Shown piece after piece: positions 47,780-64,000 of a stretch of 64,000 bases of DNA (the stretch's first letter is position 1; each line of letters opens with the position of its first letter). Under the pieces are notes generated by a model. The model made no database searches. It worked only from the letters and a program-made list of their open reading frames with translations, and was not told the origin of the DNA. Source of the DNA: Spirochaetales bacterium Spiro_05 (GTDB lineage: Bacteria > Spirochaetota > Spirochaetia > Sphaerochaetales > Sphaerochaetaceae); contig LVBG01000025.1 of the NCBI GenBank assembly GCA_001603115.1, positions 1 to 64,000 of the forward strand. The letters are read 5' to 3'. Position numbers and translations under genes: made by a program.

Positions 47780-47800
47780 AGTATGATATAATCATACTTG
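47780..47800. promoter_or_regulatory. Palindromic operator overlapping the promoter of the AbiE pair
   Basis: AAGTATGAT-ATA-ATCATACTT (9-bp perfect arms) contains TATAAT at 47788-47793; gene start at 47813. Confidence 0.65.
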
Positions 47801-47812
47801 TCGGAGGTAACA

Positions 47813-48400
47813 ATGCTTAAGACTCGTGATATAGTCATGTATAAATTGAGAGACTATGCCTCTCCAAAAGCAAAGATTACCCAGATGCTGAAGAAAGGGG
47901 AACTCCTGCAAATTTGCCGTGGAGTATACAGCACATCCCAGGATGACCCCAGATTTCCCGTAGCTTCCATGATATACAGCCCCAGCTATATCTCCTTCGA
48001 AACAGCATTGGCATATTACCAAATGATACCGGAACATACTTTTGCCATAATGAGTGCCGGTTTCCGGCTGAATAAGGAAAAGTATTATGACACGCCCTTC
48101 GGCCGGTACAGTTTTCACTATATACCGGAATCTGTCTTTCCTTGGGCTTTGAGCCCAGAGCAAGAACTTGGGTATGGCTTCCGACTTGCCACCAAGGAAA
48201 AGGCTCTCTGCGATACTCTGTACAAGATCAGGGGGGTTTCGAGCAGAAAAGCAATAAGCGATTTGTTGTTTGAAGATCTGAGAATGGATAACTCTGAGCT
48301 GCTTGCACTGGAATGGTCCACCATCAAAGAGCTTGTCCCACTCTATCACAGCACTACGCTCAACAGCTTGCTTCGCTGGAAGGAGAAAGAAGACAGATGA
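47813..48400 (+). CDS. abiEi: AbiEi-type antitoxin (type IV TA)
   Basis: MLKTRDIVMYKLRDYASPKAKITQMLKKGELLQICRGVYST; YISFETALAYYQMIPE; ATKEKALCDTLY; followed by an AbiEii-like gene. Confidence 0.8.
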   Translation: MLKTRDIVMYKLRDYASPKAKITQMLKKGELLQICRGVYSTSQDDPRFPVASMIYSPSYISFETALAYYQMIPEHTFAIMSAGFRLNKEKYYDTPFGRYSFHYIPESVFPWALSPEQELGYGFRLATKEKALCDTLYKIRGVSSRKAISDLLFEDLRMDNSELLALEWSTIKELVPLYHSTTLNSLLRWKEKEDR

Positions 48401-49266
48401 ATCAAGAAATCAACAAGATGCTCAGCACATACGCCTTGGGTACCCACATCAATGCAATACATGCCCTCAAGGAAATAATCCAAGCATTGACACTTCACAC
48501 CCTTTCAAAAACAGATTTCTTTTCCCATGCAGCCTTTTATGGGGATACTGCTCTCAGGATTTTCCATGGCTTGGATCGTTTTTCTGAGGATATGGATTTT
48601 TCCTTGAAAACGAAGGATGAATACTTCAATTTGGAAACATATCTCCCTGCCATCGAACAAGGATTGAATTCCTATGGATTGGAAATGAGTGTGCTATCCA
48701 AGAAAAAGCAGTACAGTTCAAATGTCCAGTCAGCATTTCTCAAGGCCAATACGGTTATTCACTTGGTCAAGATTACTGCAATGGCGCCCCCGTTATCAGG
48801 AATTCCAAATAATGCATTGATAAAGATCAAAATTGAAGTTGATACAAATCCTCCAGGGGGTGCCGAGTATGAACGAAAATTCCAGCTTCTTCCACAACCC
48901 TATTCGGTCTTGGTATTTGACAGGCCATCCCTGTTTGCGGGGAAACTCCATGCTTTGCTTTGCAGGAATTGGAAACAACGTGAGAAAGGACGGGATTTCT
49001 ATGACTATGTCTGGTACCTGACAGAAGGAATTCCTGTCAACATCCATCATCTTGAGCAGAGAATGCGACAATCAGGGCATTGGTGCATGGAAGCTCCGCT
49101 TACCTTGGAACTGGTAAAGAATAAGCTTCTCACTCGTTTTGACTCGCTTGATTTCCAAGCAGTAAAACAGGATGTGAACCCATTCATTCCCAATCCCTCG
49201 GTCTTGGATATCTGGGACAAGGAGTTCTTCTCTGCAATCACCAGAGATCAATTGAAAGGGAATTAG
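48397..49266 (+). CDS. abiEii: AbiEii-type nucleotidyltransferase toxin (type IV TA)
   Basis: FFSHAAFYGDTALRIFHGLDRFSEDMDFSLK; KLHALLCRNWKQREKGRDFYDYVWYL; 4-bp ATGA overlap with the antitoxin gene. Confidence 0.87.
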   Translation: MNQEINKMLSTYALGTHINAIHALKEIIQALTLHTLSKTDFFSHAAFYGDTALRIFHGLDRFSEDMDFSLKTKDEYFNLETYLPAIEQGLNSYGLEMSVLSKKKQYSSNVQSAFLKANTVIHLVKITAMAPPLSGIPNNALIKIKIEVDTNPPGGAEYERKFQLLPQPYSVLVFDRPSLFAGKLHALLCRNWKQREKGRDFYDYVWYLTEGIPVNIHHLEQRMRQSGHWCMEAPLTLELVKNKLLTRFDSLDFQAVKQDVNPFIPNPSVLDIWDKEFFSAITRDQLKGN

Positions 49267-49370: not shown

Positions 49371-52277
49371 TCAAACCCCTGTCAGATACCGATACAAACT
49401 CTCCTCTACCCGCTTCTGCATCCTGAACCACATGGCAACAATGGGCCGCTTTCCCCGCGTGCCTGTCAGCTTTTCACGCAACTCCTTCCTTAGGAACGTC
49501 ATATCGCCCATATAGTAGAAAGAAAGCCCCTCATCATCATGTTTCTTCACGAAGAGAGGAAGACGCAAGCCCGACTCCTGCTGCAAGTCCATGGCCTTCA
49601 CTTCCGGAGAACTGAGGTCACGTCCATGCTTCGTCTCCCACGCAAACTCTTCAGCTGAGAGAAAACTATCCTTGTAGTTGATGCCCGGGTCGATGGAAGC
49701 CTCATCCTTTTCCAACGTGACGAAAATCGGACAGACCTGCAGATCCTTATGGTAAACATATCCCCCGATATTCAAAGGCACCATATCCTTTTGCCATCCA
49801 AGCAGCAGCAAGGCCTCCGCTCTGGTATACTTTCCGTACAGGTAGAGATCGTGACGAAGGCGGCTCTTCTGGTCGCGCGCTTGGAATTGGAGTGCTGAGA
49901 ATGCAAGCAGGTCTTCCAGATGCCTGCGATAATCCAGCCCTTCTGTAAGCAATCCTCTGAAATCCGGATGCATCCCGAGCACTCCTTCTTCAAGAATTAC
50001 ATAGTTCAGGTTCCCATGATCGGCCTTGTCACGGTCGCGGAAGAACCCGTTGGAGAGGATGCGAAGTGCTGATGTGAGATCCTGCTCATCAACTACATAT
50101 GATGCGTAGGTCTCCTTGATAACGTCTCGGACATCATCCAATGAGAAGACCCGATCACCTGCTGAGAGAAGCAACGTAAGGATGGTCAGCTCATAGGGGC
50201 GCAACCCCTTGCCTAGTATTTTGCTCAGAAACAAGAGGCTCTGCATGTGCTTCGGGGAGAGCAAGGGCAAGGTTTTCTCCACTTTATGGAGAAAATGGCG
50301 ATAGCTGCCGGCATACTCTACAAAGAGCAGGGCTGAGATGGCATCGGTCTTGGCAAAATCCACCAGGGAAGGAACCCTTCCCACCCTTGCTTTCATCTTC
50401 AGGTACTCTTCCTTGAGAAAAGCCAGCTTGGTGAAATTGGCATTGTCGATGGAAGCAAAGATCTCTTGCCGCGCGACTCGTTCAAAGTCGATCGTGGACA
50501 CGCCGGGAAGGCCAAGGCTCCCACCGCTGAGATAGCGGCGAAGCTCATCCTTCTCATACGTATAGGCACCAAACAATGCGATCGGAATGAGAAAATTATT
50601 CTGATAGTTGCCGATGAAGTCGATGACCGTCACAAACTTCTTGCCTGCACACTTCCTCAAGCCTCTTCCGAGCTGTTGGACAAAGACGATGGCAGACTGG
50701 GTTGGCCTGAGCATGATTATCTGGTTGAGGATGGGGATGTCTATGCCTTCATTGAGAATATCAACGGCAAGCACATACTGCAGGTGGTCGCTGCGATCGG
50801 AGGCCAATGCATCCAGGACTTTGGTCCGAGTCTGGTCATCATCCTGCCCGCTCAGGGCGCGTGTCCTGTAGCCCAAGACGTTGAGCTTATCGGACAACTC
50901 CTTGGCCTCATCAACCCGACTGCAGAAAATCAGTCCTCGCCGGTTCTCTTTCTTCAATGAGTAGCGTTCCAATACCTCCCCGATCCTCAGTACCCGCTCA
51001 TCGGCAACCAAGGTGGAGAAGGCAGTGGCATCTTCCACGGTCTTTCCATCGATGGTCAGATCCTTCACTCCAAAGTAGTGGAAAGGAGCGAGCAAGTTTG
51101 CCTCAAGAGCCTGTTTGAGCCGTATCTCATAGGCAACCGTATGGTCGAAGAGCTCATAGATGTCAAACCCATCACTGCGTTCGGGAGTTGCCGTCATACC
51201 AAGCAGGAAGTTGCTTGTGAAGTGGTCCAGTACCTTGCGATAGGAGTTTGCACCACTATGATGCACCTCATCGACCACGATGTAGTCAAAATAGTCTGGA
51301 GGGTACTGAGAAAGCACCTCGCTCTTGGAGAGCGTCTGGATCATGGCAAACACATAGGGAGCATCGGTCTTGTTCCCTGAGCCAAGCATCCCCATCTCGA
51401 TGCCTGTTCCCAGAATCCTTTGGAAACTTTCCATCGATCGACGGGCAACCTGCTCCCGATGGACGATAAAGAGGAATCGCTTTGGGCGCACTACCTGTAC
51501 ATCAAAAGCACAAAGATATGTTTTGCCGGTGCCGGTTGCCGATATCAGCAGTGCCTTGCGTTTTCTCTGCTTGCGTAGGTCTGCAAGAGATTCCAGAGCT
51601 TCCCTTTGCATCGAGTTGGGGATGATCTCCTCCTGGCTCTCCTCCATAGCGCCGACAAGACTGAGGTTCCTCTGCCAGGCAGTTGCTCTCTGGATGGTGC
51701 GATAGTGTTCCAACCAGAGTGGATCCAACTCCCTACCCTGGGACCATGCATCGCCAAATTCCTCCTCCATCTTGCGGGAGAACTCACCGCTGTGCAGTGC
51801 ATGAAAACGGACATTCCACTCACGGTTGACCGCCAGCGCTTTGGCGGTGATGTTTGCACTGCCGACAATGAATGTTGAGTGGTTGTGGTGCGTGAAGAAA
51901 TACCCTTTAGCATGAAACGCTTCACCCACCACAATGCGCAGGGTGATATGCGGGTACTGTTCCTTGATGGCAAGCAGGGCATCCGCTTCGGTAAAGTTGA
52001 GGTAGTCAGAGGTGAGAATCTCTCCCTTCACTCCTCGCTCTTGTGCATCGAGCAGCGCCTGATGGAGTTGCATCAAGCCCCCCAAAGTGATGAATGCAAC
52101 GGAAAACCGAAAGAATGTGCAGTTTCTCAACTCTTCGACAAGCGCTGAAAGCACCTTCTGATACGGTGGCTTGTTCAGTACCAGGGCGGGACGATACGCA
52201 TCTGATGAAGCTAGCGTGTCATCAATGAAGCTTGTGTTCAGGCTCTTGAGCAAAAATTCAGCACTCAGGCTGTTCAT
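49371..52277 (-). CDS. DEAD/DEAH helicase with N-terminal PLD-like domain and C-terminal DUF3427-like region
   Basis: FHAKGYFFTHHNHSTFIVGSANIT (PLD); LLISATGTGKTYLCAFD; YIVVDEVHHSGANSY; LGMTATPERSDG; QLGRGLRKCAGKKFVTVIDFIGNY. Confidence 0.88.
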   Translation of the reverse strand: MNSLSAEFLLKSLNTSFIDDTLASSDAYRPALVLNKPPYQKVLSALVEELRNCTFFRFSVAFITLGGLMQLHQALLDAQERGVKGEILTSDYLNFTEADALLAIKEQYPHITLRIVVGEAFHAKGYFFTHHNHSTFIVGSANITAKALAVNREWNVRFHALHSGEFSRKMEEEFGDAWSQGRELDPLWLEHYRTIQRATAWQRNLSLVGAMEESQEEIIPNSMQREALESLADLRKQRKRKALLISATGTGKTYLCAFDVQVVRPKRFLFIVHREQVARRSMESFQRILGTGIEMGMLGSGNKTDAPYVFAMIQTLSKSEVLSQYPPDYFDYIVVDEVHHSGANSYRKVLDHFTSNFLLGMTATPERSDGFDIYELFDHTVAYEIRLKQALEANLLAPFHYFGVKDLTIDGKTVEDATAFSTLVADERVLRIGEVLERYSLKKENRRGLIFCSRVDEAKELSDKLNVLGYRTRALSGQDDDQTRTKVLDALASDRSDHLQYVLAVDILNEGIDIPILNQIIMLRPTQSAIVFVQQLGRGLRKCAGKKFVTVIDFIGNYQNNFLIPIALFGAYTYEKDELRRYLSGGSLGLPGVSTIDFERVARQEIFASIDNANFTKLAFLKEEYLKMKARVGRVPSLVDFAKTDAISALLFVEYAGSYRHFLHKVEKTLPLLSPKHMQSLLFLSKILGKGLRPYELTILTLLLSAGDRVFSLDDVRDVIKETYASYVVDEQDLTSALRILSNGFFRDRDKADHGNLNYVILEEGVLGMHPDFRGLLTEGLDYRRHLEDLLAFSALQFQARDQKSRLRHDLYLYGKYTRAEALLLLGWQKDMVPLNIGGYVYHKDLQVCPIFVTLEKDEASIDPGINYKDSFLSAEEFAWETKHGRDLSSPEVKAMDLQQESGLRLPLFVKKHDDEGLSFYYMGDMTFLRKELREKLTGTRGKRPIVAMWFRMQKRVEESLYRYLTGV

Positions 52278-52672
52278 CGCTTCTCCAACAGAGAGGCAAT
52301 CCGCTGGACAATAGGCAGGTCGGCAGCAGCCCAGTCCAGGCCCTGCAACTCACCAGATTCCAGCCATCGGCTGTCCAAGTGTTCGGAGAGTGCCAGTTCA
52401 CCGGACACAAGAGCACAGCGATAGGCGTGCATGGTGATATGGAATGTGGAGTAGGTATGCTCTACGGTCATCAGGTGGTCCAGCACCTCTATCTGAAGCG
52501 AAAGCTCTTCGCCGATTTCCCTGACAATTGCCTCTTCGCCTGACTCTCCCATTTCAAGCTTTCCACCGGGAAACTCCCACTTTTTGGCAAGCTCCCCAAC
52601 ATTCTTTCTCTGTGCTGCAAACACTTTCCCCTGCTCGATGATGACAGCGGCAGCTACTACTATCTGTTTCAT
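52274..52672 (-). CDS. Nudix hydrolase (8-oxo-dGTP diphosphatase-like)
   Basis: GGKLEMGESGEEAIVREIGEELSL Nudix box; stop overlaps the helicase start. Confidence 0.92.
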   Translation of the reverse strand: MKQIVVAAAVIIEQGKVFAAQRKNVGELAKKWEFPGGKLEMGESGEEAIVREIGEELSLQIEVLDHLMTVEHTYSTFHITMHAYRCALVSGELALSEHLDSRWLESGELQGLDWAAADLPIVQRIASLLEKR

Positions 52673-52802
52673 ATACCTTCCTTGATCTGATGAGTATACC
52701 CCAAAAAGCAGCCGAAGGCGACAAAGACCCGGCCCCATGTTTGTGCTATCGGATTCACAGGTGATTGCCATCCGCTTCTGTTTACCCGATACTATCCTTA
52801 CC

Positions 52803-54230
52803 ATGAAACAAGGCATTGTACTGATTACCTATCCCGACTCCTTGGGAACAAACCTCAAACAGCTCAAACAGGTGCTGGACAGCCACTATGCAAAAGCTAT
52901 CGCTTCCATCCACGTGCTTCCCTTCTTTCCCTCCTCAGGGGACCGGGGCTTCGCACCACTTCACTATGAAAGCGTAGATCCTGCTTTCGGTACCTGGGAG
53001 GACATCCAATCGCTCTCTTCTGCCTATGATCTTGTCTTCGACTACATGATCAACCACATCAGCAGCAAGAGCCCTTACCTCAAGCAGTACCTGCAGGAGG
53101 GAGCGTACTCTTCCAACAAAGCGCTGTTCATCGACTATGAAGCATTCTTCTCAGGCGAGCCAACACGCGAACAAGTGGACAAGATCTACAAGCGCAAGAA
53201 CAAGGACCCCTATCACAGCGTCACCTTCGCTGACGGGACGACAAAAAAACTCTGGTGCACCTTCAGCGAGGAGCAAATAGACCTGGATACCCAAAGCGAA
53301 GAGGGGAAGGCCTTTCTCAAGCACAATCTGGAACACCTCGCATCAAGGGGCGCCAAGCTCATCCGCCTCGATGCCTTCGCCTATGCCATCAAGAAGCTCG
53401 ATACCGACTGCTTCTTTGTGGAGCCCGAAACAAGCAGGCTGCTCGCTGAGTGCAGGGACATTGTTGCCCCCTTCGGTGCTGATGTTCTTCCCGAAATCCA
53501 TGAGCACTACTCCATCCAGCTCAAGCTCGCCCAAGAAGGCTTTCCTGTCTATGACTTCGCCCTCCCCCTGCTGATGCTCCATGCCCTCTATTTCAACACC
53601 ACCACCTACCTGAAGAACTGGTTCTCCATCTGCCCGAGAAACCAGTACACCACCTTGGATACCCATGATGGCATCGGGGTGGTCGATGTCTACGGCTTGC
53701 TTCCGCATGAAGAGATAGAGAAGACACAGCAACACCTCTACGAACGGGGTGCAAACGTAAAGCGCATCTACAGTTCAGAGGCTTACAACAATTTGGACAT
53801 CTATCAGGTGAACTGCACCTATTACAGTGCCCTTGGCGATGATGACCGTGCCTATCTGGTTGCCCGTGCAGTGCAGTTCTTCAGCCCTGGCACGCCCCAG
53901 GTCTACTATGTCGGGATGCTTGCCGGCAGGAACGACCTGAAGCTGCTCGAAGAGACCCGTGAGGGGAGAAACATCAACCGCCACTACTACAGCCTCGAAG
54001 AGATCGGGGAGGAACAAAAGCGGCCGGTTGTACAAGCTTTGAAGCTGCTGATGGAGCTGAGAACCAGTCATCCTGCTTTCACAGGGACCTTTGTCCTGGA
54101 AGAGAATGAGGACGACGCAACAATCTGCCTCAGTTGGAAAACAGAGAACACCAAGCTTACGCTTCTTGCCGATTTCCCCTCCCGTTCCTTGAGCATCGAG
54201 GAGGATGGCAAAAGCATCATGAAGTTGTAG
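52803..54230 (+). CDS. Sucrose phosphorylase / GH13_18-type glycoside phosphorylase
   Basis: LITYPDSLGTNLKQLKQVLD; HVLPFFPSSGDRGFAPLHYESVDPAFGTW; FDYMINHISSKS; LIRLDAFAYAIKK; LPEIHEHYS. Confidence 0.88.
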   Translation: MKQGIVLITYPDSLGTNLKQLKQVLDSHYAKAIASIHVLPFFPSSGDRGFAPLHYESVDPAFGTWEDIQSLSSAYDLVFDYMINHISSKSPYLKQYLQEGAYSSNKALFIDYEAFFSGEPTREQVDKIYKRKNKDPYHSVTFADGTTKKLWCTFSEEQIDLDTQSEEGKAFLKHNLEHLASRGAKLIRLDAFAYAIKKLDTDCFFVEPETSRLLAECRDIVAPFGADVLPEIHEHYSIQLKLAQEGFPVYDFALPLLMLHALYFNTTTYLKNWFSICPRNQYTTLDTHDGIGVVDVYGLLPHEEIEKTQQHLYERGANVKRIYSSEAYNNLDIYQVNCTYYSALGDDDRAYLVARAVQFFSPGTPQVYYVGMLAGRNDLKLLEETREGRNINRHYYSLEEIGEEQKRPVVQALKLLMELRTSHPAFTGTFVLEENEDDATICLSWKTENTKLTLLADFPSRSLSIEEDGKSIMKL

Positions 54231-54289
54231 AAAGAAAGGGCACTCAGCTTGACAAGAGAAGAGCAGAAGCGAATGATGGGCTGACCACC

Positions 54290-55225
54290 ATGAACAGCGT
54301 CGTCATTCTCCACAACCACATACCGCAAAACGCTCCTGAAGATGTACTTGATATCCTTACCCAAGCCAAATGGATTGGGCAAATCCTCTCTGACAAAGGC
54401 TGGGCAGTCAGTCTGCTCCCCTTCTCGCTGCACGCACTGACGCACATCGAAAACTCTCCAGTGGTCTTCAACCTGGTGGACTCTGCACCTCATGAGGAGA
54501 GCCTTTCCTATCTGGCGGCGGGCATTCTGGAACACCTTGGGCTACGCTATACCGGCTGCAGCCTCCCAACGCTTCTGGTAACGGGAGACAAACAGCTGAC
54601 CAAAGCCCTGCTTTTGAAGTCAGGCCTTCCCACGCCCAAACCTTACGATGCGACGGATCTCCAAGCGCTCTACCTGATCAAGGCAACCAATCAGGATGCG
54701 TCGCTGGGCTTGGACGAGTCGTGTCTGGTACGGGGGGAGGACGTGGAACGCGTGCTTGCCGAAAAACAGGAGAAGCTTGGCTTCCCTCTCTTTGCGGAGC
54801 AGTATGTCGATGGACGGGAGTTCACCGTCTGTCTCTATGGAAAGTGTGAGCATCCTACCATCCTGCCACCGTATGAGTGGGTGTTCTGCGAGTATGGACA
54901 GCGGGCAAAAATCATCACCTATGATGCGAAGTGGACTGAAAAGACCTACGGCTATGAGCACATCCAGGCAAAGTACTCCCACGATGAGCAAGATGCGGCC
55001 TTGCTGGCTGAACTGGTTCGTCTGAGCCGGGAGTGTTGCAAGCTGTTCAATCTCACCGGCTATGCACGGGTCGATTTCCGCATCGATGCAGAGAACCGCC
55101 CGTACATCCTGGAGATCAACGCAAACCCCTCTTTCTATGGCTTCTACCACCTGGCCAAGGAGTGGGACTTCTCCTTCGAGGATCTGGTGGAGAACCTGGC
55201 TCTCAATGCTGCGGTTCAAAGATAG
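54290..55225 (+). CDS. D-Ala-D-Ala ligase-like ATP-grasp protein (third ligase, convergent)
   Basis: YLIKATNQDASLGLDESCLV; YVDGREFTVCLYG; ARVDFRIDAENRPYILEINANPSFYGFY. Confidence 0.88.
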   Translation: MNSVVILHNHIPQNAPEDVLDILTQAKWIGQILSDKGWAVSLLPFSLHALTHIENSPVVFNLVDSAPHEESLSYLAAGILEHLGLRYTGCSLPTLLVTGDKQLTKALLLKSGLPTPKPYDATDLQALYLIKATNQDASLGLDESCLVRGEDVERVLAEKQEKLGFPLFAEQYVDGREFTVCLYGKCEHPTILPPYEWVFCEYGQRAKIITYDAKWTEKTYGYEHIQAKYSHDEQDAALLAELVRLSRECCKLFNLTGYARVDFRIDAENRPYILEINANPSFYGFYHLAKEWDFSFEDLVENLALNAAVQR

Positions 55226-55677
55226 GTATCGGCCCAGACCAGCGTCTCCAACTCCAGCCCGGATTCAAGGTAGAAGCGTTGTGCGCGTTCATTGGTGGGG
55301 TGCGTCACCAAGGCAAGGTAGGTGCAACCTCTCTCGTTTGCCCAAGCTCGTACATGATTGAGCAGGAGGGAGCCCAACCCCTTCAGCCTTGCCTCTTGGG
55401 CCACGAACAATTCGTTCAGCCAGAGATAGTCCCCACCGCTCTCAAGGCCGCAGCAGACGTTCCCAAAAGCAAAGCCGACTGCTTTCTCCCCGCTGTAGGC
55501 AACCCACAGCACACTTCTGCTCTCAGGTTTCATCGCATTGGCAAGGACTTTGGCAACCTCATCCCTGGTCTGGTTGTACCCGATGAACGAAAGCTGACCT
55601 CCGAGCAACCCAAGCAAGCCTTCGTAGTCCAGGATTGCGAGAGTGTGCTGATAGGCAACGATGTTCTGCTCATCCAT
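55216..55677 (-). CDS. GNAT family N-acetyltransferase
   Basis: LNELFVAQEARLKGLGSLLLNHVRAWANERGCTYLALVTHPTNERAQRFYLESG. Confidence 0.9.
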   Translation of the reverse strand: MDEQNIVAYQHTLAILDYEGLLGLLGGQLSFIGYNQTRDEVAKVLANAMKPESRSVLWVAYSGEKAVGFAFGNVCCGLESGGDYLWLNELFVAQEARLKGLGSLLLNHVRAWANERGCTYLALVTHPTNERAQRFYLESGLELETLVWADTYL

Positions 55678-55680
55678 ACC

Positions 55681-56163
55681 TCACCATCCTTTCACATAGA
55701 TCAGCTTGTCATCACCAGGGGCGTAGTAGTGCGCAAGCCTTGCTTCCAACTCGTATCCGTGGCTGGTATAGAAACTGCGGGTAGGAACATAGAGCTCACT
55801 GCTGCTCGTCTCGATGTAGATGCGCTTTCCTCCCCGCTTCTCAATCTCGGCCTCCGTACCTGCCAGCAACACCGATCCGATGCCCTGCTTCTGATGGGCA
55901 GGGTCTACGGCAATCCAGTAGAGGTCATAGCTGCTTCGGGTTCCCGGAATCGGACCAAAGCATGTATAGCCGAGCACCTGCTGCTGGCGCTCGGCAAACT
56001 GGAAGAAGTAGAGCGAAGGCTCTCCGAGCTGAAGGCGTTCCTTTACCAGCGATACGCCCACCTCCTGCTCTTCTGCATTGAAAAACCCGGATCGCTTGAG
56101 AATTGAGGCAACCACCTCAAGGTCGCTCTCCCTTGGTTGCTCGCGCATGACAAGCGTATCCAT
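55681..56163 (-). CDS. GNAT family N-acetyltransferase
   Basis: WIAVDPAHQKQGIGSVLLAGTEAEIEKRGGKRIYIETSSSELYVPTRSFYTSHGYE. Confidence 0.92.
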   Translation of the reverse strand: MDTLVMREQPRESDLEVVASILKRSGFFNAEEQEVGVSLVKERLQLGEPSLYFFQFAERQQQVLGYTCFGPIPGTRSSYDLYWIAVDPAHQKQGIGSVLLAGTEAEIEKRGGKRIYIETSSSELYVPTRSFYTSHGYELEARLAHYYAPGDDKLIYVKGW

Positions 56164-56164
56164 C

Positions 56165-57112
56165 CTAGGCCTCCAGAACCAGACGCTCTATCAGCTGCTC
56201 ATAGGAGATGCCAGCTTGCAGGGCAGCGGCGGCATAGCCACTCTCACGTTCCAGACAAGGATTGCTGTTCATTTCCAGGATGAAGAGCCGGTTGTTCTTA
56301 TTCACACGCACATCTACGCGGGCAGGGCCGGTAGAACCAAAGACTTGGTAGGTTCTCGCCGCTTTCTCTTCCAGCTCTGCGACAAGAGCCGAGTCTTCAC
56401 TTGGAAGGTCGAACCTCCGTTGGGTGTGTTGGTAGGCAAAGGAATCAACCTCCCATTTCGCCTCATAGCCGGCAACTCGTATCCGATCAGCAGGATAGTC
56501 GATGAAGCAGAGCTCTGCGACGGGCAATACCTCCCCACCAGGAAGTAGGGAAACGCTGAACTCACGCCCCTCGATATACTCCTCTGCAAAGATGGATCCT
56601 TCCTTCAGTGCATGGGAAAGCTCTTCTTGGGTGGAAAACATCCGTACCGAGGACTCGTCGATACCCAGCGAAGCCTCCTGCTCTGTCGGTTTGAGGATAA
56701 GTTGTGTATTCAGGTACCACGTTTGGGAAAACACACTGCGCTCTTCAACCCACCGGGGAGTAGGAAGCCCCGCCGATGCCAACAAACGCTTGGCCCCGGT
56801 CTTCTGGGCGCTGAGCAGCAACGTATGAGCGCTGCCTCCACAGCAACGCACACCCAAGCTTTGGCAGAGCAGCGGAGGAAGACACAAAAGGGAGGCTGAA
56901 CTGAGATTCTCCACAAGATTGAAGACCAAGTCGCACTGCGAGCGCTCGATGGTTCTGCCGGTAATGGCAAGATTCATGGAAAAATAGGCAACAGTCACCT
57001 CATGGCCCAGGCTTCTGAGTGCTTGCTTGACTTGGTTCACTTGCACCCTTGTGTCTTTGCTGTCCAGACTTGCCTGAGTTGGCACCCTGTCAGTGAGTAT
57101 CAGGATTCGCAT
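56165..57112 (-). CDS. D-Ala-D-Ala ligase-like ATP-grasp protein
   Basis: LILKPTEQEASLGIDESSV; EEYIEGREFSVSLL; ARVDVRVNKNNRLFILEMNSNPCL. Confidence 0.88.
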   Translation of the reverse strand: MRILILTDRVPTQASLDSKDTRVQVNQVKQALRSLGHEVTVAYFSMNLAITGRTIERSQCDLVFNLVENLSSASLLCLPPLLCQSLGVRCCGGSAHTLLLSAQKTGAKRLLASAGLPTPRWVEERSVFSQTWYLNTQLILKPTEQEASLGIDESSVRMFSTQEELSHALKEGSIFAEEYIEGREFSVSLLPGGEVLPVAELCFIDYPADRIRVAGYEAKWEVDSFAYQHTQRRFDLPSEDSALVAELEEKAARTYQVFGSTGPARVDVRVNKNNRLFILEMNSNPCLERESGYAAAALQAGISYEQLIERLVLEA

Positions 57113-58095
57113 AAGCCACTCCTGGAGCATGCAGAGTGCATGATCCTTTTCAGCAAGGTCTCATACGAGATGCCATGCATGGCACTGAGAATCGGAAGAT
57201 CGGAATCCACGGGATGCAGGCCTGCAAGAGGATTCACCTCAAGGAAGTGAACCACCCCATCCTTATCCATTCGTACATCCACCCTCCCCCCATCACGACA
57301 ACCGAGAGCTCTCCATGCGCCCAAGGCAACCTGTTCGCACAAGAGAGTTTCTTCGTCCTTGGGTTTTACATACCGGGTACAGCTGAGATACTCCTGCTTG
57401 GTCTTATAGGAGTAGATGCCCTTGTCACTTGATGCATCCACCAAGATCTCCATCACCCCGACGCTCTCCGCCTCATCTCCCGTTCCGGTGATGCCCACGG
57501 TGAACTCCCGTCCACTGAGATAGGTTTCCACCAAAACCGGTTGCCCATACGTTGAAAGCAGGTGGTTTGCAGTGATCGCAAGCTCTTGCTTGTTCTGCAC
57601 AAGTGAGTGTTCGCTTATCCCAATCCCTGTTCCCCCAGCCACAGGCTTGAGGAAGAGAGGAAAGGGAAGCTGAATGCGTTCACTGTCTGTGGGTTGCTCT
57701 ATGAGTGCGAAGGAAGCGGTTTTCACCCCGTGGGAGGCCACCACCTGCTTGGCAAAAGCCTTGTGCAGGCAGATGGCAAGGACAAAGGAGTCCGAGAATA
57801 CATAGGGAATCTGGTAGGCATCGAGCAAGGCGGGAATCTGGGACTCCCTGAGAAGGCCAAATAGCCCCTCAGCGATATTGAAAACCAAATCACATCGCTT
57901 GCCTTGGGCCAGATAGGTCACCAAGGCCTTGACGTTGCCTATGCGTTCCGTCTCATAGCCCAGATTGCGAAGGGTTTGCTCAAGCGTATCGATGGTAAGG
58001 AGGCTGTCACACTCGCTTACCAGCTCTGCATCATACCCCTCCTTCACATAGTCATCCTTCAGATCATACGTCAGTCCAACCAGCATCCGGCTCAC
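57100..58095 (-). CDS. D-Ala-D-Ala ligase-like ATP-grasp protein
   Basis: FPLFLKPVAGGTGIGISEHSLV; VETYLSGREFTVGITG; GRVDVRMDKDGVVHFLEVNPLAGL. Confidence 0.88.
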   Translation of the reverse strand: MSRMLVGLTYDLKDDYVKEGYDAELVSECDSLLTIDTLEQTLRNLGYETERIGNVKALVTYLAQGKRCDLVFNIAEGLFGLLRESQIPALLDAYQIPYVFSDSFVLAICLHKAFAKQVVASHGVKTASFALIEQPTDSERIQLPFPLFLKPVAGGTGIGISEHSLVQNKQELAITANHLLSTYGQPVLVETYLSGREFTVGITGTGDEAESVGVMEILVDASSDKGIYSYKTKQEYLSCTRYVKPKDEETLLCEQVALGAWRALGCRDGGRVDVRMDKDGVVHFLEVNPLAGLHPVDSDLPILSAMHGISYETLLKRIMHSACSRSGLCES

Positions 58096-59345
58096 TCCCG
58101 TTCGGTGGGATAGGAGAAGACCTTTCCCTCATAGTTGCGCAGATATAGATGCTGCTCATCCTGACCAACCTCGTATGCAGGAAGAATGGGCACCTTGCCT
58201 CCTCCTCCCGGGGTATCGATGACATACTGGGGTATGGCATACCCGCTGGTGAAACCTCTCAACCCCTGCATCAACTGCTTGCCCCTGTCCACGGTCGTCC
58301 TGAAGTGGGCGGAGCCGGAGATGGGATCGCACTGGTAGAGATAGTAAGGCCTCACCCGATGGCGAAGCAGTTTGTGAAAGAGGTTCTTCAGCGTCTCAAC
58401 CGAGTCATTCACCCCCTTGAGCAGGACAGTCTGGCTTCCCAGGACAATGCCTGCGTCCGCAAGCGCATCGCAAGCCTTTGCGGCTTCCCTGGTCATCTCA
58501 TCAGGATGGGTTGCATGGATACTCATATAGAGCGGCTTGCATTTCTTGAGCACTGCAAGCAGTTGTTCGGTAATGCGTTGGGGCATGACCATCGGAACCT
58601 TAGTCCCGATACGTACCATTTCCACATGCCCGATGGCTCCGAGTCGGCTCAGGAGGTAACCCAACATCTCATCAGAGAGAGTCAAAGGATCGCCGCCGCT
58701 TACCACGACATCCCTCACTTCCGTATGTTCCTCGATATAGGAGAGAGCCTCATCCCAGTGCTTGAGCAGATTCTCCGTATGCCCGCCGACCATCCGTGAT
58801 CGGGTGCAGTATCGGCAGTAGGTGCTGCAAAAGCTTGTGGTAAGGAAGAGTACACGGTCCGGATACCGGTGTACCAGCCCACGGACCTTGGTGGTATGCT
58901 CCTCTGAGAGAGGATCATCGCTTTCACCGCTCTGATGGTCAGCTTCCAATATGGAAGGAATGACACACTTGCGCAGCGATCCTTGGGTATCGTTGGGGTC
59001 AATGAGACTAAGATAGTAGGGGGTGACGGAAAAGGGGAAAAGCGTACTTGCTTGGCGAAGTGCCTGCTCTTCTTCTGCTGTAGGTACCAGATACCGGCAG
59101 AGGTCGTGATAGGTGGTGATCCGATGAAAAAGTTGCCAATGCCAGTCATTCCACATCGCATCTGTCGCGTCCGGGAAATGCAGCTTCCTGAACTCTTCGA
59201 TCCTGCCATCCAGAGGGTACTGGGCATCTGAAAGGCGGCTGTTTTGGTGATGGGGGTGTGGTGAGTCCGAAGACTCACCGCTCCGTATAAGCGGAGGCTC
59301 GACATCATCAATAATAACAATCTCGTTAGTATTGAACTGTCCCAT
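58092..59345 (-). CDS. KamA-family radical SAM protein (lysine 2,3-aminomutase-like)
   Basis: TTSFCSTYCRYCTRSRMVG (CxxxCxxC); VVSGGDPLTLSD; TPGGGGKVPILP. Start 59345 chosen for RBS spacing; 59354 is an alternative. Confidence 0.92.
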   Translation of the reverse strand: MGQFNTNEIVIIDDVEPPLIRSGESSDSPHPHHQNSRLSDAQYPLDGRIEEFRKLHFPDATDAMWNDWHWQLFHRITTYHDLCRYLVPTAEEEQALRQASTLFPFSVTPYYLSLIDPNDTQGSLRKCVIPSILEADHQSGESDDPLSEEHTTKVRGLVHRYPDRVLFLTTSFCSTYCRYCTRSRMVGGHTENLLKHWDEALSYIEEHTEVRDVVVSGGDPLTLSDEMLGYLLSRLGAIGHVEMVRIGTKVPMVMPQRITEQLLAVLKKCKPLYMSIHATHPDEMTREAAKACDALADAGIVLGSQTVLLKGVNDSVETLKNLFHKLLRHRVRPYYLYQCDPISGSAHFRTTVDRGKQLMQGLRGFTSGYAIPQYVIDTPGGGGKVPILPAYEVGQDEQHLYLRNYEGKVFSYPTERE

Positions 59346-59545
59346 AAAAATCATCCTTGACGATCAAACCAGCGGTCCTTTCGACTCTCATTGATCGTCA
59401 AACGCAGTGTAGCACCAAGACCAAAAAAGGTCGCCGCTTAAGGCCATGTTTTCTTCATCTTTTTCACGTTTTCTCGGGCCTTGCACATATTACAGAACAC
59501 CGCTGTCTGCTACTATCAGAAAAAGGCTCAGGGGGACACCATACG

Positions 59546-60535
59546 ATGCCGAACCTCTACCATCCTGAACGATTTCAAGGTTCTTTGGACAGACGATCGT
59601 ACTTCGAAGGCTGGTACTTCAAGATAGCCATCGAAGAACCGCAGCCTGAGGTCATCGCCTTCATACCCGGCATCGCATTGGCTGAGGATAGCCACGCCTT
59701 CATCCAGGTGATCAGCAGCAGGGAAGGCAGAAGCTGGTATGTACGCTTCCCCCTTGCCTCTTTTCACGCAGGAACGCACAACTTCTCGATTGCCATCGGC
59801 GACAACCACTTCAGCAAAAACTCCATCAGCCTCTCGCTGCATCAGAGCGGCCTGGACTTGGAGGCAAGCATCACGCTGATCGACCTGCAACCCTTCCCTG
59901 TTTCCTTGACAAGTGTTGGGGTGATGGGGTGGTTTGCGTATCTGCCAGCCATGGAGTGCAAACACGGTGTGGTGGCCACCCACGGCTCTGCCGAGGGGAA
60001 CCTCACACTGAACAACCGAACAGTACCTATCAAAAGAAGCAGCGTCTATAGCGAAAAAGATTGGGGAAAGAGCTTTCCCACCGCTTACCTCTGGATGCAT
60101 GCCAACTGTTTCTCCGACGCAAGCACCTCTGTCATGCTCAGCATTGCTCGCATTCCCTATCTGGGATTGCGATTCACCGGATTTCTGGGGTTTGTTCAGC
60201 TGAAAGATGAGATGATTCACCTCGGCACGTATACCAATGCGAAGATTGTATCGCTGCAAACCACCGATCAGGAGGCGAAGGTCGTAATCAGCAAGAAGGA
60301 CAGGATGCTTACCTTCACCGCACGTATGGGTAGCGGTTCACACCTTGCATCGCCGCGCAATGGAGCAATGGACGGGAGCATCACCGAGAGTGTGGAGGGA
60401 ACGCTCTCCTTGGCAATCTCCGATCGCAGCGGAAGAACACTCTATGCAGATGAGAGCGGCTTGGCAGGCATCGAACTGTACAATTGCTGCACCCTGGAAA
60501 AGCGCTCTGCGATGGAAGCTCACAAAAAAGTATAG
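59546..60535 (+). CDS. Tocopherol cyclase-like family protein
   Basis: LYHPERFQGSLDRRSYFEGWYFKIA; SVYSEKDWGKSFPTAYLWMHANCF. Confidence 0.82.
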   Translation: MPNLYHPERFQGSLDRRSYFEGWYFKIAIEEPQPEVIAFIPGIALAEDSHAFIQVISSREGRSWYVRFPLASFHAGTHNFSIAIGDNHFSKNSISLSLHQSGLDLEASITLIDLQPFPVSLTSVGVMGWFAYLPAMECKHGVVATHGSAEGNLTLNNRTVPIKRSSVYSEKDWGKSFPTAYLWMHANCFSDASTSVMLSIARIPYLGLRFTGFLGFVQLKDEMIHLGTYTNAKIVSLQTTDQEAKVVISKKDRMLTFTARMGSGSHLASPRNGAMDGSITESVEGTLSLAISDRSGRTLYADESGLAGIELYNCCTLEKRSAMEAHKKV

Positions 60536-60547
60536 TATAGTGACACT

Positions 60548-61621
60548 ATGGAAACTATCAATACGTTCTTCACCACCACCATCAAGCCGCTGCTGCCCAT
60601 GTTCATCCTGCTCGGCTCATCACTGGTTCTCATCTTGCTTGCCAACACGATCCTGGGGAAACGCATCAAAAAGCTGGAGGAGCTGAAGAAAGCTGATCCT
60701 ACCCAGAAAAGTCGGTTCCGTACGCTTCCGGTGCTCCGCTTCTTCAAGCGCATTGCGCTCCCTCTTATCTTCCTTGCCGTCTTGTGGGTTTCCATGCAAC
60801 GAGTCAGCTTTGGGGAAACCATTCAAGAGACGGTGCAGATAATCTTTGCCTTGGTCATGACGATCATCATTGTTCGATCTTTGAACAAGGGCATCGAGCT
60901 GAGCTTTTCCAAATACTTCGAAAAAGAGTATGCCAACCAAGAGCATGAGAAAAACCTCAAGCCCCTGCTTTCCTTTGTAAAGCTGCTGATCTGGGTTGTT
61001 GGCTTTCTCATTCTTCTCAGCAATATCGGCTTCAATATCACCACAGCCCTTGCAGGCCTTGGTGTTGGTGGTATTGCGGTTGCAATTGCTGCCCAAGGAG
61101 TTCTGGGCGACCTCTTCAGCTACTTTGTCATCTTCTTTGACCACCCCTTCGCCCTCGGGGACTTCATTGTCTTTGGGGATAAGTCAGGAATTGTCGAACG
61201 AATCGGCATCAAGAGCAGCCGTATCAGGGTCCTCAGTGGGGAGATGCTGATCATCAGCAACTCTGACCTCACCAGCAGCCGCATCCACAACTACAAGCAG
61301 ATGCAACGCAGGCGCGTAGTCAGCCAGATATCCATTCCCTTTGAGACGGAAATCGAGAAGGTGGAAATGATTCCCACCTTGATCAAGGAAGCCATAGCCA
61401 GTGTCACCACCATCGAGGGGGTACTCTGCGATCGCTGTCATTTCCAAACCTTCGGTGCTTCAGCTCTCGTCTTCGAGACGGTCTACTACGTTCCCTCTCC
61501 CGAATATGTGGTGTACATGAATGTACAGCAGGAGATCAACCTCCTGCTGCTCAAGCACTTCAGGCAGGAAGGCATCGAGCTTGCCTATCCCGCCCAGAAG
61601 ATATTTACGGTCCAAGGCTAG
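60548..61621 (+). CDS. MscS-family mechanosensitive ion channel
   Basis: ALAGLGVGGIAVAIAAQGVLGDLFSYFVIFFDHPFALGDFIVFGDKSGIVERIGIKSSRIRVLSGEMLIISNSDL. Confidence 0.94.
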   Translation: METINTFFTTTIKPLLPMFILLGSSLVLILLANTILGKRIKKLEELKKADPTQKSRFRTLPVLRFFKRIALPLIFLAVLWVSMQRVSFGETIQETVQIIFALVMTIIIVRSLNKGIELSFSKYFEKEYANQEHEKNLKPLLSFVKLLIWVVGFLILLSNIGFNITTALAGLGVGGIAVAIAAQGVLGDLFSYFVIFFDHPFALGDFIVFGDKSGIVERIGIKSSRIRVLSGEMLIISNSDLTSSRIHNYKQMQRRRVVSQISIPFETEIEKVEMIPTLIKEAIASVTTIEGVLCDRCHFQTFGASALVFETVYYVPSPEYVVYMNVQQEINLLLLKHFRQEGIELAYPAQKIFTVQG

Positions 61622-64000
61622 ATTACCTGGATCTCTTCCTCAACGTCCTCCACAACCTCGGTGATCTTGTCAGCACTGAGAATCCTGTCCATCTCGTCGT
61701 GTACTGCCTGGGTATAATCGCCGAAGTCAAAGAGAGGCCTGAGCCTGCTGAACAGCGGCTTCACGAAGTGCCTCAGCTGACTGCGGTCCTTTTCCAAGGT
61801 GGACTTGCTCTGCAGCACAAGAACGGTTACCGGTGAGGGGGAGCAATAGCTGCCTACTTCCACAAAGCCAAACTTCTTGTAGAGCTTGATCGTCTTGGTA
61901 TCATCAGCGAAGACATCGATGATCAGCTCCTCAACCCCTGTTGCCCGTGCAAGGAGGAAAATGAGGATGATCAAGCCGATGGAAGCTGAGGTATTGCGCA
62001 TCTCAGGCAGCACGGCAAGGCGTATGATCTCAGCACAGTGACGGGTCTTGAGTACCGACTTGATGTCAAAATACTTGGAGATGGGCAGCGGCCAGAACCG
62101 CTCGCTGGTCATCAGGCTTACTGTTCCCACCGGGTGCAATCCCTTGAATGCGAGGATGTGCAGGGCCTTCTCGTCTTCCTTTCGATGGATGGACTCCTCA
62201 AGATAGCCCTTCTCACCAACCAATACCTTGCGTTGGATGAAGAAGACATCATTCATACCATTTTGATCGTTCACCAAGGTGAAGTGAATGGACTCACGGC
62301 CTTCTTCATTGAGGGGGAAGATGGTGGTGAACTCAGAGCCAATCTTCTCCTCACTGCGTACCCTTATCCTTCCGCCCATCTTATCCACAATGCTATAGCA
62401 GTTGGAAAGGCCTAGGCCTGTTCCGCTTCCGGGAGCCTTTGTGGTGAAGAAGGGAGTGAAGATCTGGCTCATATACTTCTCTGCAATGCCGCAACCGGTA
62501 TCGCCTACCTTGACCTGCACAAAATCATCCTTCTCAAAGCAGGTGAGCGTCAGCTTGCCGTTGCCCTCCATCGCCTGCAAGGCGTTGACGATGAGGTTGA
62601 GAAAGAGTTGCTGAAGCTCACCTTCATTCGCCTCAATGGTAGGCAGGGCATGATAGTTGCGCTCTACACGAATATTCTGTGAGTCGACCCCTCGCAGTGC
62701 AAGTCGGAGCGAGAACTCCAGCACCCTTACCAGTTCCACCGGCTCCTTCTGCTTCACCTCCTCCTTGCGGCTGTAGATGGAGAGCTCCTTGATGACGTCA
62801 CTTGCTGTCTTTGAGTAGGAGAGGATGTCCTGTACATACTCATGGTGAGGGTTTGCCTCTTCCAATTCACTGAGCATAATCTCAGCGGTTCCCACGATGC
62901 CGGCCAAGGGGTTGTTCAGCTCATGGGCGATGCCGGCGGCCAGGGTTCCGATACCTGCCATCTTCTCGGTCCGCACCAGCTCTTCCTGCATATGCTTCTG
63001 CTCGGTGATGTCGTTGATGATTTCGATGAAGACGCTCTTGCTCTTGTCTGCGGAGCGCACTGAGTGGAACTGGAAGGAGTAGACCTTATCATCCACATCC
63101 GTCTCCTTCTCCTGCAAGACACCGGTATGGAGGCAGTCCAAGCCCTGACAGAAGGCACAGGGCCGGCTCCGGTCGAAGAAGGATCGGTAGCATTTGCTGC
63201 CGATCAAAAGCTCGCGCGGCTCACCGAAGAACGAGACTGCCGCCGTATTCGCTTCTTGGATGGTGTAGTCGATGTCGATGAGGCAGACCGGTGAAGCTAT
63301 CCCGTTGAAAATGGCTTCAAGCTTGTTCTTGCTCATGGTCAGCTCATCGCCCTGGATGCGAAGTTGCTCGAAGGAGAGGGCGTTCTCCAAGGAGAGGCTG
63401 CTCTGGGCAGCAAGGATCTCCAGGGCATCCCGCTCGATCTCACTGATGAGGGCCTTGCCATCTCCGTAGCCGATGACGATGTAGCCTGCTACCTGCCTGC
63501 GGATCACCAACGGGATGATTACATCACTGGGAGGAAGGAAGGCACTGACAGAAAGGCGCGGTTCATCGGGGTTCACATGAATGATGGCTGACACATTCTC
63601 CTTCTTGCACTGCTCTAGACGTGCTTCCACCACTGCTGAGAAAGCAAACGGAATGTCCTCCCCCACCCTGATCTCAGTAGGACAGTTGTTGTTGGCTACC
63701 AAAAAGTAGTTGTCCGGCTCCTCGATGCCTCTGGCAATGAAGACAACCCAGTTGGTTTTCAAGCCCGCACTCAGATTCTTCACCACCTCTTGGCCAAGCT
63801 CATGGAGGTTGACGATGGTCGTCAGGCGTTTGCTGAGATTTCTGATGGTTGTCTGATAGGGGTGTCGCTTGGGGATGATGATTGCATCGACGATGTAGCT
63901 GATGAGATTGCGCAGGGGATGAATGATGATGACGGTGATGATACCCAGGATCAAGGAGAGCTGGAAGAGGTTGCCCGGTGCAAAAGAGGGGTTGAAGAGC
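61618..64000 (-). CDS. Sensor histidine kinase (GAF-like, PAS, HisKA, HATPase) with C-terminal GNAT/FeeM-like domain; N-terminus truncated by window edge
   Basis: Frame stays open upstream of 63954 to the edge (LFNPSFAPGNLFQLSLILGI); LAAGIAHELNNPLAGIVG; GSGTGLGLSNCYSIVDKMGG; then HFTLVNDQNGMNDVFFIQRKVLVGEKGYLEES...RLAVLPEMRNTSASIGLIILIFLLARATGVEELIIDVFADDTKTIKLYKKFGFVEVG. Confidence 0.85.
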   Translation of the reverse strand, partial: LFNPSFAPGNLFQLSLILGIITVIIIHPLRNLISYIVDAIIIPKRHPYQTTIRNLSKRLTTIVNLHELGQEVVKNLSAGLKTNWVVFIARGIEEPDNYFLVANNNCPTEIRVGEDIPFAFSAVVEARLEQCKKENVSAIIHVNPDEPRLSVSAFLPPSDVIIPLVIRRQVAGYIVIGYGDGKALISEIERDALEILAAQSSLSLENALSFEQLRIQGDELTMSKNKLEAIFNGIASPVCLIDIDYTIQEANTAAVSFFGEPRELLIGSKCYRSFFDRSRPCAFCQGLDCLHTGVLQEKETDVDDKVYSFQFHSVRSADKSKSVFIEIINDITEQKHMQEELVRTEKMAGIGTLAAGIAHELNNPLAGIVGTAEIMLSELEEANPHHEYVQDILSYSKTASDVIKELSIYSRKEEVKQKEPVELVRVLEFSLRLALRGVDSQNIRVERNYHALPTIEANEGELQQLFLNLIVNALQAMEGNGKLTLTCFEKDDFVQVKVGDTGCGIAEKYMSQIFTPFFTTKAPGSGTGLGLSNCYSIVDKMGGRIRVRSEEKIGSEFTTIFPLNEEGRESIHFTLVNDQNGMNDVFFIQRKVLVGEKGYLEESIHRKEDEKALHILAFKGLHPVGTVSLMTSERFWPLPISKYFDIKSVLKTRHCAEIIRLAVLPEMRNTSASIGLIILIFLLARATGVEELIIDVFADDTKTIKLYKKFGFVEVGSYCSPSPVTVLVLQSKSTLEKDRSQLRHFVKPLFSRLRPLFDFGDYTQAVHDEMDRILSADKITEVVEDVEEEIQVI

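Follow-up and report, generated by a model that had tools for sequence, protein, structure and literature searches.

A core module of four genes, encoding a lysine-2,3-aminomutase-type radical SAM enzyme (KamA), two ATP-grasp ligases (AG1 and AG2), and a GNAT acetyltransferase (GN1), was identified in a spirochaete contig, where a third ligase and a second GNAT (AG3 and GN2) form a lineage-level add-on. The module looks like a complete and unstudied pathway present in many unrelated phyla. Its gene content, its conservation, and the active site of its KamA are well supported. We give about an even chance to the reading that it makes, inside the cell, a di- or tripeptide that contains beta-lysine and carries an N-acetyl group; each reaction, like the product itself, is a prediction. 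In the literature searched, no paper was found that joins KamA, ATP-grasp, and GNAT genes in this way; Iyer and colleagues may have noted the neighborhood in their survey of ATP-grasp amidoligases (2009).

The window (i.e., the whole stretch analyzed, 64,000 nucleotides of contig LVBG01000025.1 from Spirochaetales bacterium Spiro_05) carries the module and a neighboring gene at the positions given in Table 1. The first-pass annotation had described a minus-strand array of an aminomutase, two ATP-grasp, and two GNAT genes and, overlapping it by 10 bp, a third ATP-grasp gene in convergent orientation; both the array and the convergent gene (AG3) are present at these ORF coordinates. Pfam searches detected the Dala_Dala_lig_C domain in AG1, AG2, and AG3 and the GNAT domain in GN1 and GN2. 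The minus-strand run KamA-AG1-AG2-GN1-GN2 is arranged head to tail, each gene overlapping the next or separated from it by only a few bases: the overlap is 4 bp between KamA and AG1 and 13 bp between AG1 and AG2, and the 10-bp overlap of AG3 is with GN2. The starts used for KamA, AG2, AG3, and the sucrose phosphorylase gene are internal ATGs within slightly longer ORFs. A riboswitch upstream of the module was sought and rejected (the window gave no hit at the curated threshold, nor did the region at E ≤ 1), and scans for promoter and terminator consensus sequences gave matches no better than the chance level.

Table 1. Positions, strands, and domain or model matches of the module genes and an adjacent gene in the window
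Gene	Position	Strand	Match
KamA, lysine-2,3-aminomutase-type radical SAM enzyme of the module-specific clade	58092-59345	-	LAM_C + Radical_SAM
AG1, Ddl-fold ATP-grasp ligase 1	57100-58095	-	PF07478, 96 bits
AG2, Ddl-like ATP-grasp ligase 2	56165-57112	-	PF07478, 73 bits
GN1, GNAT acetyltransferase of the core module	55681-56163	-	PF00583, 49 bits
GN2, second GNAT, lineage-level accessory	55216-55677	-	PF00583, 60 bits
AG3, third ATP-grasp ligase, AG2 paralogue, accessory	54290-55225	+	PF07478, 46 bits
Sucrose phosphorylase, neighbor only	52803-54230	+	TIGR03852, 692 bits (cut-off, 334)

Within the genus, 15 of 27 genomes carry AG1, and a search with AG1 at E ≤ 1e-30 found a relative in 32 of 101 related spirochaete genomes. 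KamA, AG1, AG2, and GN1 occur in the same order at most of the spirochaete loci fetched, and a chance arrangement is excluded because the gene order is conserved in other genomes. A scan of public genomes with the AG1 alignment matched at least 600 stretches, of which at least 563 are relatives. The best 80 of these loci span Bacteroidota, deltaproteobacterial groups, Acidobacteria, Planctomycetes, Ignavibacteria, Aminicenantes, and others, as judged from record titles. Prolixibacter denitrificans DSM 27267 (L123) is one of the cultured carriers. KamA, AG2, and GN1 were detected at 73, 67, and 56 of these 80 loci, respectively, and all four core genes at 54 under a stricter score filter; these cross-phylum counts rest on the best 80 of at least 563 AG1 relatives, and prevalence elsewhere may be lower. 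Many of the 26 loci lacking the full core were cut by contig ends, and 16 loci were flagged as cut short near AG1. The first-pass annotation had proposed a search for a conserved neighborhood of KamA, ligases, and GNAT as a check, and such a neighborhood does recur in relatives. Median intergenic gaps across the core at the best 80 loci were +3, -4, and 0 bp.

Smaller and larger versions of the module were also observed. Three loci (L060, L064, and L110) carry only KamA and AG1, with flanking sequence to spare, and AG3 and GN2 were found together only in about 10 genomes of the genus and near relatives. Pairwise divergences correlated best for KamA and AG1 (r=0.80), followed by AG2 and GN1 (0.72) and KamA and AG2 (0.72), so that among adjacent pairs covariation was strongest for KamA-AG1 and AG2-GN1; this ranking makes it reasonable to suppose that the pathway was built up stepwise. 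One locus (L063, 9477-13611) encodes KamA and AG1, then two proteins without a Pfam match (398 and 217 aa) and a second AG1-like ligase. Homologues on plasmids, of both AG1 and GN1, were set aside because they are distant (~30%) and lie in unrelated contexts, with the exception of Thioflavicoccus. On the Thioflavicoccus plasmid (L152, 3467-8948), a diaminobutyrate transaminase gene, 2,3-diaminopropionate synthesis genes, an AG1-like ligase gene, and KamA converge, perhaps as another beta-amino-acid peptide pathway.

The KamA in the window scored 329 bits against TIGR00238 (cut-off, 199) and 429 against the AblA model, under its cut-off of 525. Its closest solved structure is the lysine 2,3-aminomutase of Clostridium subterminale (2a5h; E=3.5e-122), to which it is identical at D293, D330, and K337. 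All 95 module KamAs compared have the CxxxCxxC cluster cysteines, R134, the PLP lysine K337, and D330, and 94 of them have D293. In the lysine 2,3-aminomutase structure, the two aspartates hold the lysine side chain. Position 330 is T in two BlsG (arginine) references, and glutamate aminomutases are known to replace both aspartates. Lysine is the likely substrate of the module KamA because the PLP lysine and both side-chain aspartates are kept, and the earlier call of a KamA-type enzyme is backed by these lysine-type active-site residues. In the tree, module KamAs formed a single clade (support 100/99) apart from twelve AblAs with a neighboring AblB; three long-branch rows are of unsure place, one of which, Thioflavicoccus, falls inside the module clade. 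EpmB is the same kind of KamA-family radical SAM enzyme, but the module KamA scored 263 of the 369 bits required by the EpmB model, its adjoining genes encode ligases rather than efp, and an EpmB-like KamA is encoded by a separate gene in the genome.

The three ligases share the fold and the ATP-grasp catalytic residues of the D-Ala-D-Ala ligase (Ddl) family. The AlphaFold model of AG1 (pLDDT 92.9) superposes on Ddl structures with a TM score of ~0.75. Among 195 module ligases, K97, K144, E180, E187, K215, R255, D257, E270, and N272 are essentially invariant, and K97, K144, E187, R255, and N272 are invariant across all three ligase families. In contrast, the Ddl specificity residues have changed: for AG1, AG2, and AG3, respectively, S150 is replaced by T, A, and A; Y216 by a gap, W, and W; G276 by G, C, and S; and positions 281-282 by SD, SG, and YG. 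These differences uphold the earlier claim that the three ligases diverge from one another, AG3 being 36% identical to AG2. Whether the ligases were ordinary Ddl enzymes had been raised at first pass as a point to check. They scored about 69 to 125 bits against the D-Ala-D-Ala ligase model (AG1 highest, ~125), far under its cut-off of 245.65, and one true Ddl near or above the curated cut-off is encoded elsewhere in each of the 9 genomes checked, module carriers or not. AG1, AG2, and AG3 are so predicted to be active ligases with substrates other than those of Ddl, because the catalytic residues are kept, the specificity residues are changed, and a true Ddl is present elsewhere.

GN1 is most similar in structure to an uncharacterized GNAT of Desulfovibrio (2r7h, Dde_3044; 40% identity, TM 0.96). 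GN2, for which the alignment comprised 11 sequences with that of the window included, is 25% identical to GN1 and barely related to it.

Additional genes linked to the module in relatives provided indirect clues about its product. At 12 of the best 80 of at least 563 loci there is a gene for a protein of ~580 residues that combines a histone-deacetylase-family domain with a GNAT-like part at its N terminus; in one case this protein is fused to GN1. Among solved structures, it comes nearest to acetylpolyamine amidohydrolases (E=3.3e-74). Among 299 Spirochaetia genomes, 8 of the 10 that carry the full-length protein have the module, versus 42 of 299 overall (Fisher p=3e-6); none was seen in the sampled genomes of the genus itself. 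Beside the deacetylase, two loci (L068, 7202-10379, and L069, 6739-9913) encode an AG1-like ligase that is fused to an S58 peptidase domain related to DmpA and the beta-peptidyl aminopeptidase BapA; this ligase is ~30% identical to AG1 and has no KamA alongside. The accessory enzymes are close sequence relatives of acetylpolyamine amidohydrolases and of DmpA/BapA but, unlike these, they are linked to the ligase module, in part by fusion to a GNAT or an ATP-grasp domain. Together, the deacetylase and S58 links point indirectly to a small molecule that contains a beta-amino-acid bond and an amine carrying an acetyl group. A further fusion, of an AG1-like ligase with a GNAT, was observed (L071, 1967-3568).

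In the proposed pathway, which would be cytoplasmic and self-contained, KamA would isomerize L-lysine to beta-lysine, as its conserved residues suggest. AG1 would then activate one amino acid as an acyl phosphate and ligate a second, beta-lysine being a probable partner because of the operon pairing and the catalytic residues. AG2 may add a further residue or form a second amide, and GN1 may acetylate an amine of the product. AG3 and GN2 could provide a second ligation and capping branch in this lineage. In other lineages, deacetylation of the product would fall to the GNAT-deacetylase, an enzyme of the acetylpolyamine-amidohydrolase type, and hydrolysis of the peptide to the AG1-like ligase fused to a beta-aminopeptidase-type domain. 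The likeliest role of the product, as a conjecture, is that of an accumulated, protease-resistant internal solute or nitrogen store; a role as a stress solute is no more than plausible. A wider reading, which we put forward tentatively and hold to be possible rather than probable, is that N-acetylated beta-lysine oligopeptides form an unrecognized class of primary metabolites, made by a mobile four-gene cassette that spread across many, largely anaerobic phyla, was built from KamA-AG1, then AG2-GN1, then AG3-GN2, and has dedicated deacetylase and beta-aminopeptidase turnover modules.

Some of the known systems closest to the module make acetylated solutes. N-epsilon-acetyl-beta-lysine is an established salt solute made by AblA and AblB, and acetylated peptide solutes, among them N-acetylglutaminylglutamine amide (NAGGN), have likewise been described (PMC1224877). 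Gene clusters that join ablA to ablB, and yjeK to efp, are on record (PMC2821294). Like AblAB, the module has a lysine-type KamA and a GNAT in one operon and a beta-lysine precursor, and a classical ablA-ablB pair occurs in sister species of the genus that lack the module. Unlike AblAB, it has a KamA of a separate clade, no AblB, and two to three additional ATP-grasp ligases. The AblB route to N-epsilon-acetyl-beta-lysine that had been entertained at first pass did not hold up: neither GN1 nor GN2 matched the AblB model (TIGR03827), and no AblB was found in the source genome, which is 69% complete, or in the near-complete module-carrying relatives G002, G005, and G018. The comparison with NAGGN fared no better, as no NAGGN-pathway model gave a match. 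The module shares with NAGGN synthesis the ATP-grasp and GNAT logic for an acetylated peptide, but its ligases and GNATs are separate genes, no amidotransferase is among them, and an aminomutase is present. NAGGN genes encode a GNAT/ATP-grasp fusion and an asparagine-synthetase-like amidotransferase. The module combines the ideas of AblAB and of acetylated peptides and, by the tests of membership, belongs to neither.

A variant of the AblAB route, in which a salt-induced osmolyte of the N-epsilon-acetyl-beta-lysine type receives a charge-neutralizing residue from the ligases, is nevertheless the strongest alternative, although we consider it unlikely. It would fit the lysine-type KamA, the mechanosensitive channel gene (MscS) that adjoins the module in close relatives only, and a tendency of AblAB and the module to alternate within the genus, where 15, 11, and 3 of the 27 genomes have the module, AblB, and both, respectively (p=0.02, shared ancestry ignored). 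The alternation is absent class-wide (2 genomes with both; p=1.0, shared ancestry again ignored), and mutual exclusion was rejected as a general rule. In addition, the module KamA lies outside the AblA clade, the GNATs score too low for the AblB model, and no riboswitch was found. Judged by record titles, lakes, fens, and sludge are the source of many carriers, as much as saline sites are; these freshwater carriers count against the variant, and the salt-solute role suggested by the first-pass annotation is not supported.

A secreted or bioactive beta-lysine natural product, e.g., a dipeptide antimetabolite for which the GNAT gives self-protection or tailoring, appears improbable to us. ATP-grasp ligases and aminomutases are generally known to serve antibiotic pathways, 2,3-diaminopropionate genes adjoin a KamA gene and an ATP-grasp gene on the Thioflavicoccus plasmid, and the acetyltransferases for aminoglycosides, tabtoxin, and phosphinothricin are among the fold neighbors of GN1, a resemblance shared by most GNATs. 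Against such a product, no transporter, regulator, or resistance gene is conserved among the neighbors scanned, and the spread over very many phyla with near-constant gene content is unlike that of antibiotic clusters. Very improbable is the attachment of beta-lysine by the ligases to a macromolecule or envelope precursor (a peptidoglycan side chain or a protein, as by EpmA/EpmB on EF-P), for which the cell-wall lineage of Ddl-like ligases and, at locus L104, a gene for the murein-recycling ligase Mpl immediately following GN1 might speak, since that wall gene is a single case, a true Ddl and an EpmB-like KamA are encoded separately, and the module is patchy among close species, unlikely for a core wall step.

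If the acetylated beta-lysine peptide reading is true, the at least 563 AG1 relatives would mean that a metabolite common among many environmental, largely anaerobic bacteria has been overlooked, and the module would also be a source of new beta-amino-acid ligases. The dedicated KamA clade marks the pathway and makes it easy to find, and the pathway is small enough for expression as a unit with a readout by mass.

No recurrent function was observed among the Pfam-scanned neighbors of the module, which are diverse. The sucrose-phosphorylase-type gene reported before AG3 is indeed present (TIGR03852) but does not belong to the module, as it lies beside it only in the window and two close relatives. 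The MutT, MscS, tocopherol-cyclase-like, and kinase genes were likewise rejected as module parts, being unconserved beyond close relatives. The tocopherol-cyclase-family gene (59357-60535, plus strand) is divergent from KamA, and its listed TTG start is probably too early, with an ATG at ~59546. In close relatives, synteny with MscS and the module extends to a GAF-PAS histidine kinase (61618-63954, minus strand) whose C-terminal domain is a FeeM/GNAT-like acyltransferase; the kinase is longer in relatives and so probably cut by the window edge. On the other side of the module, PADLOC detected an AbiEi/AbiEii toxin-antitoxin-type pair with overlapping ORFs (47798-49266, plus strand; 188 and 343 bits). 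The region at 49371-52816 (minus strand) encodes a 968-aa PLD/helicase protein that matched type IV methyl-directed restriction models (680 bits) and overlaps a MutT/NUDIX gene with a match to the candidate defense model PDC-S07 (162 bits); this pair recurs in one relative (L041).
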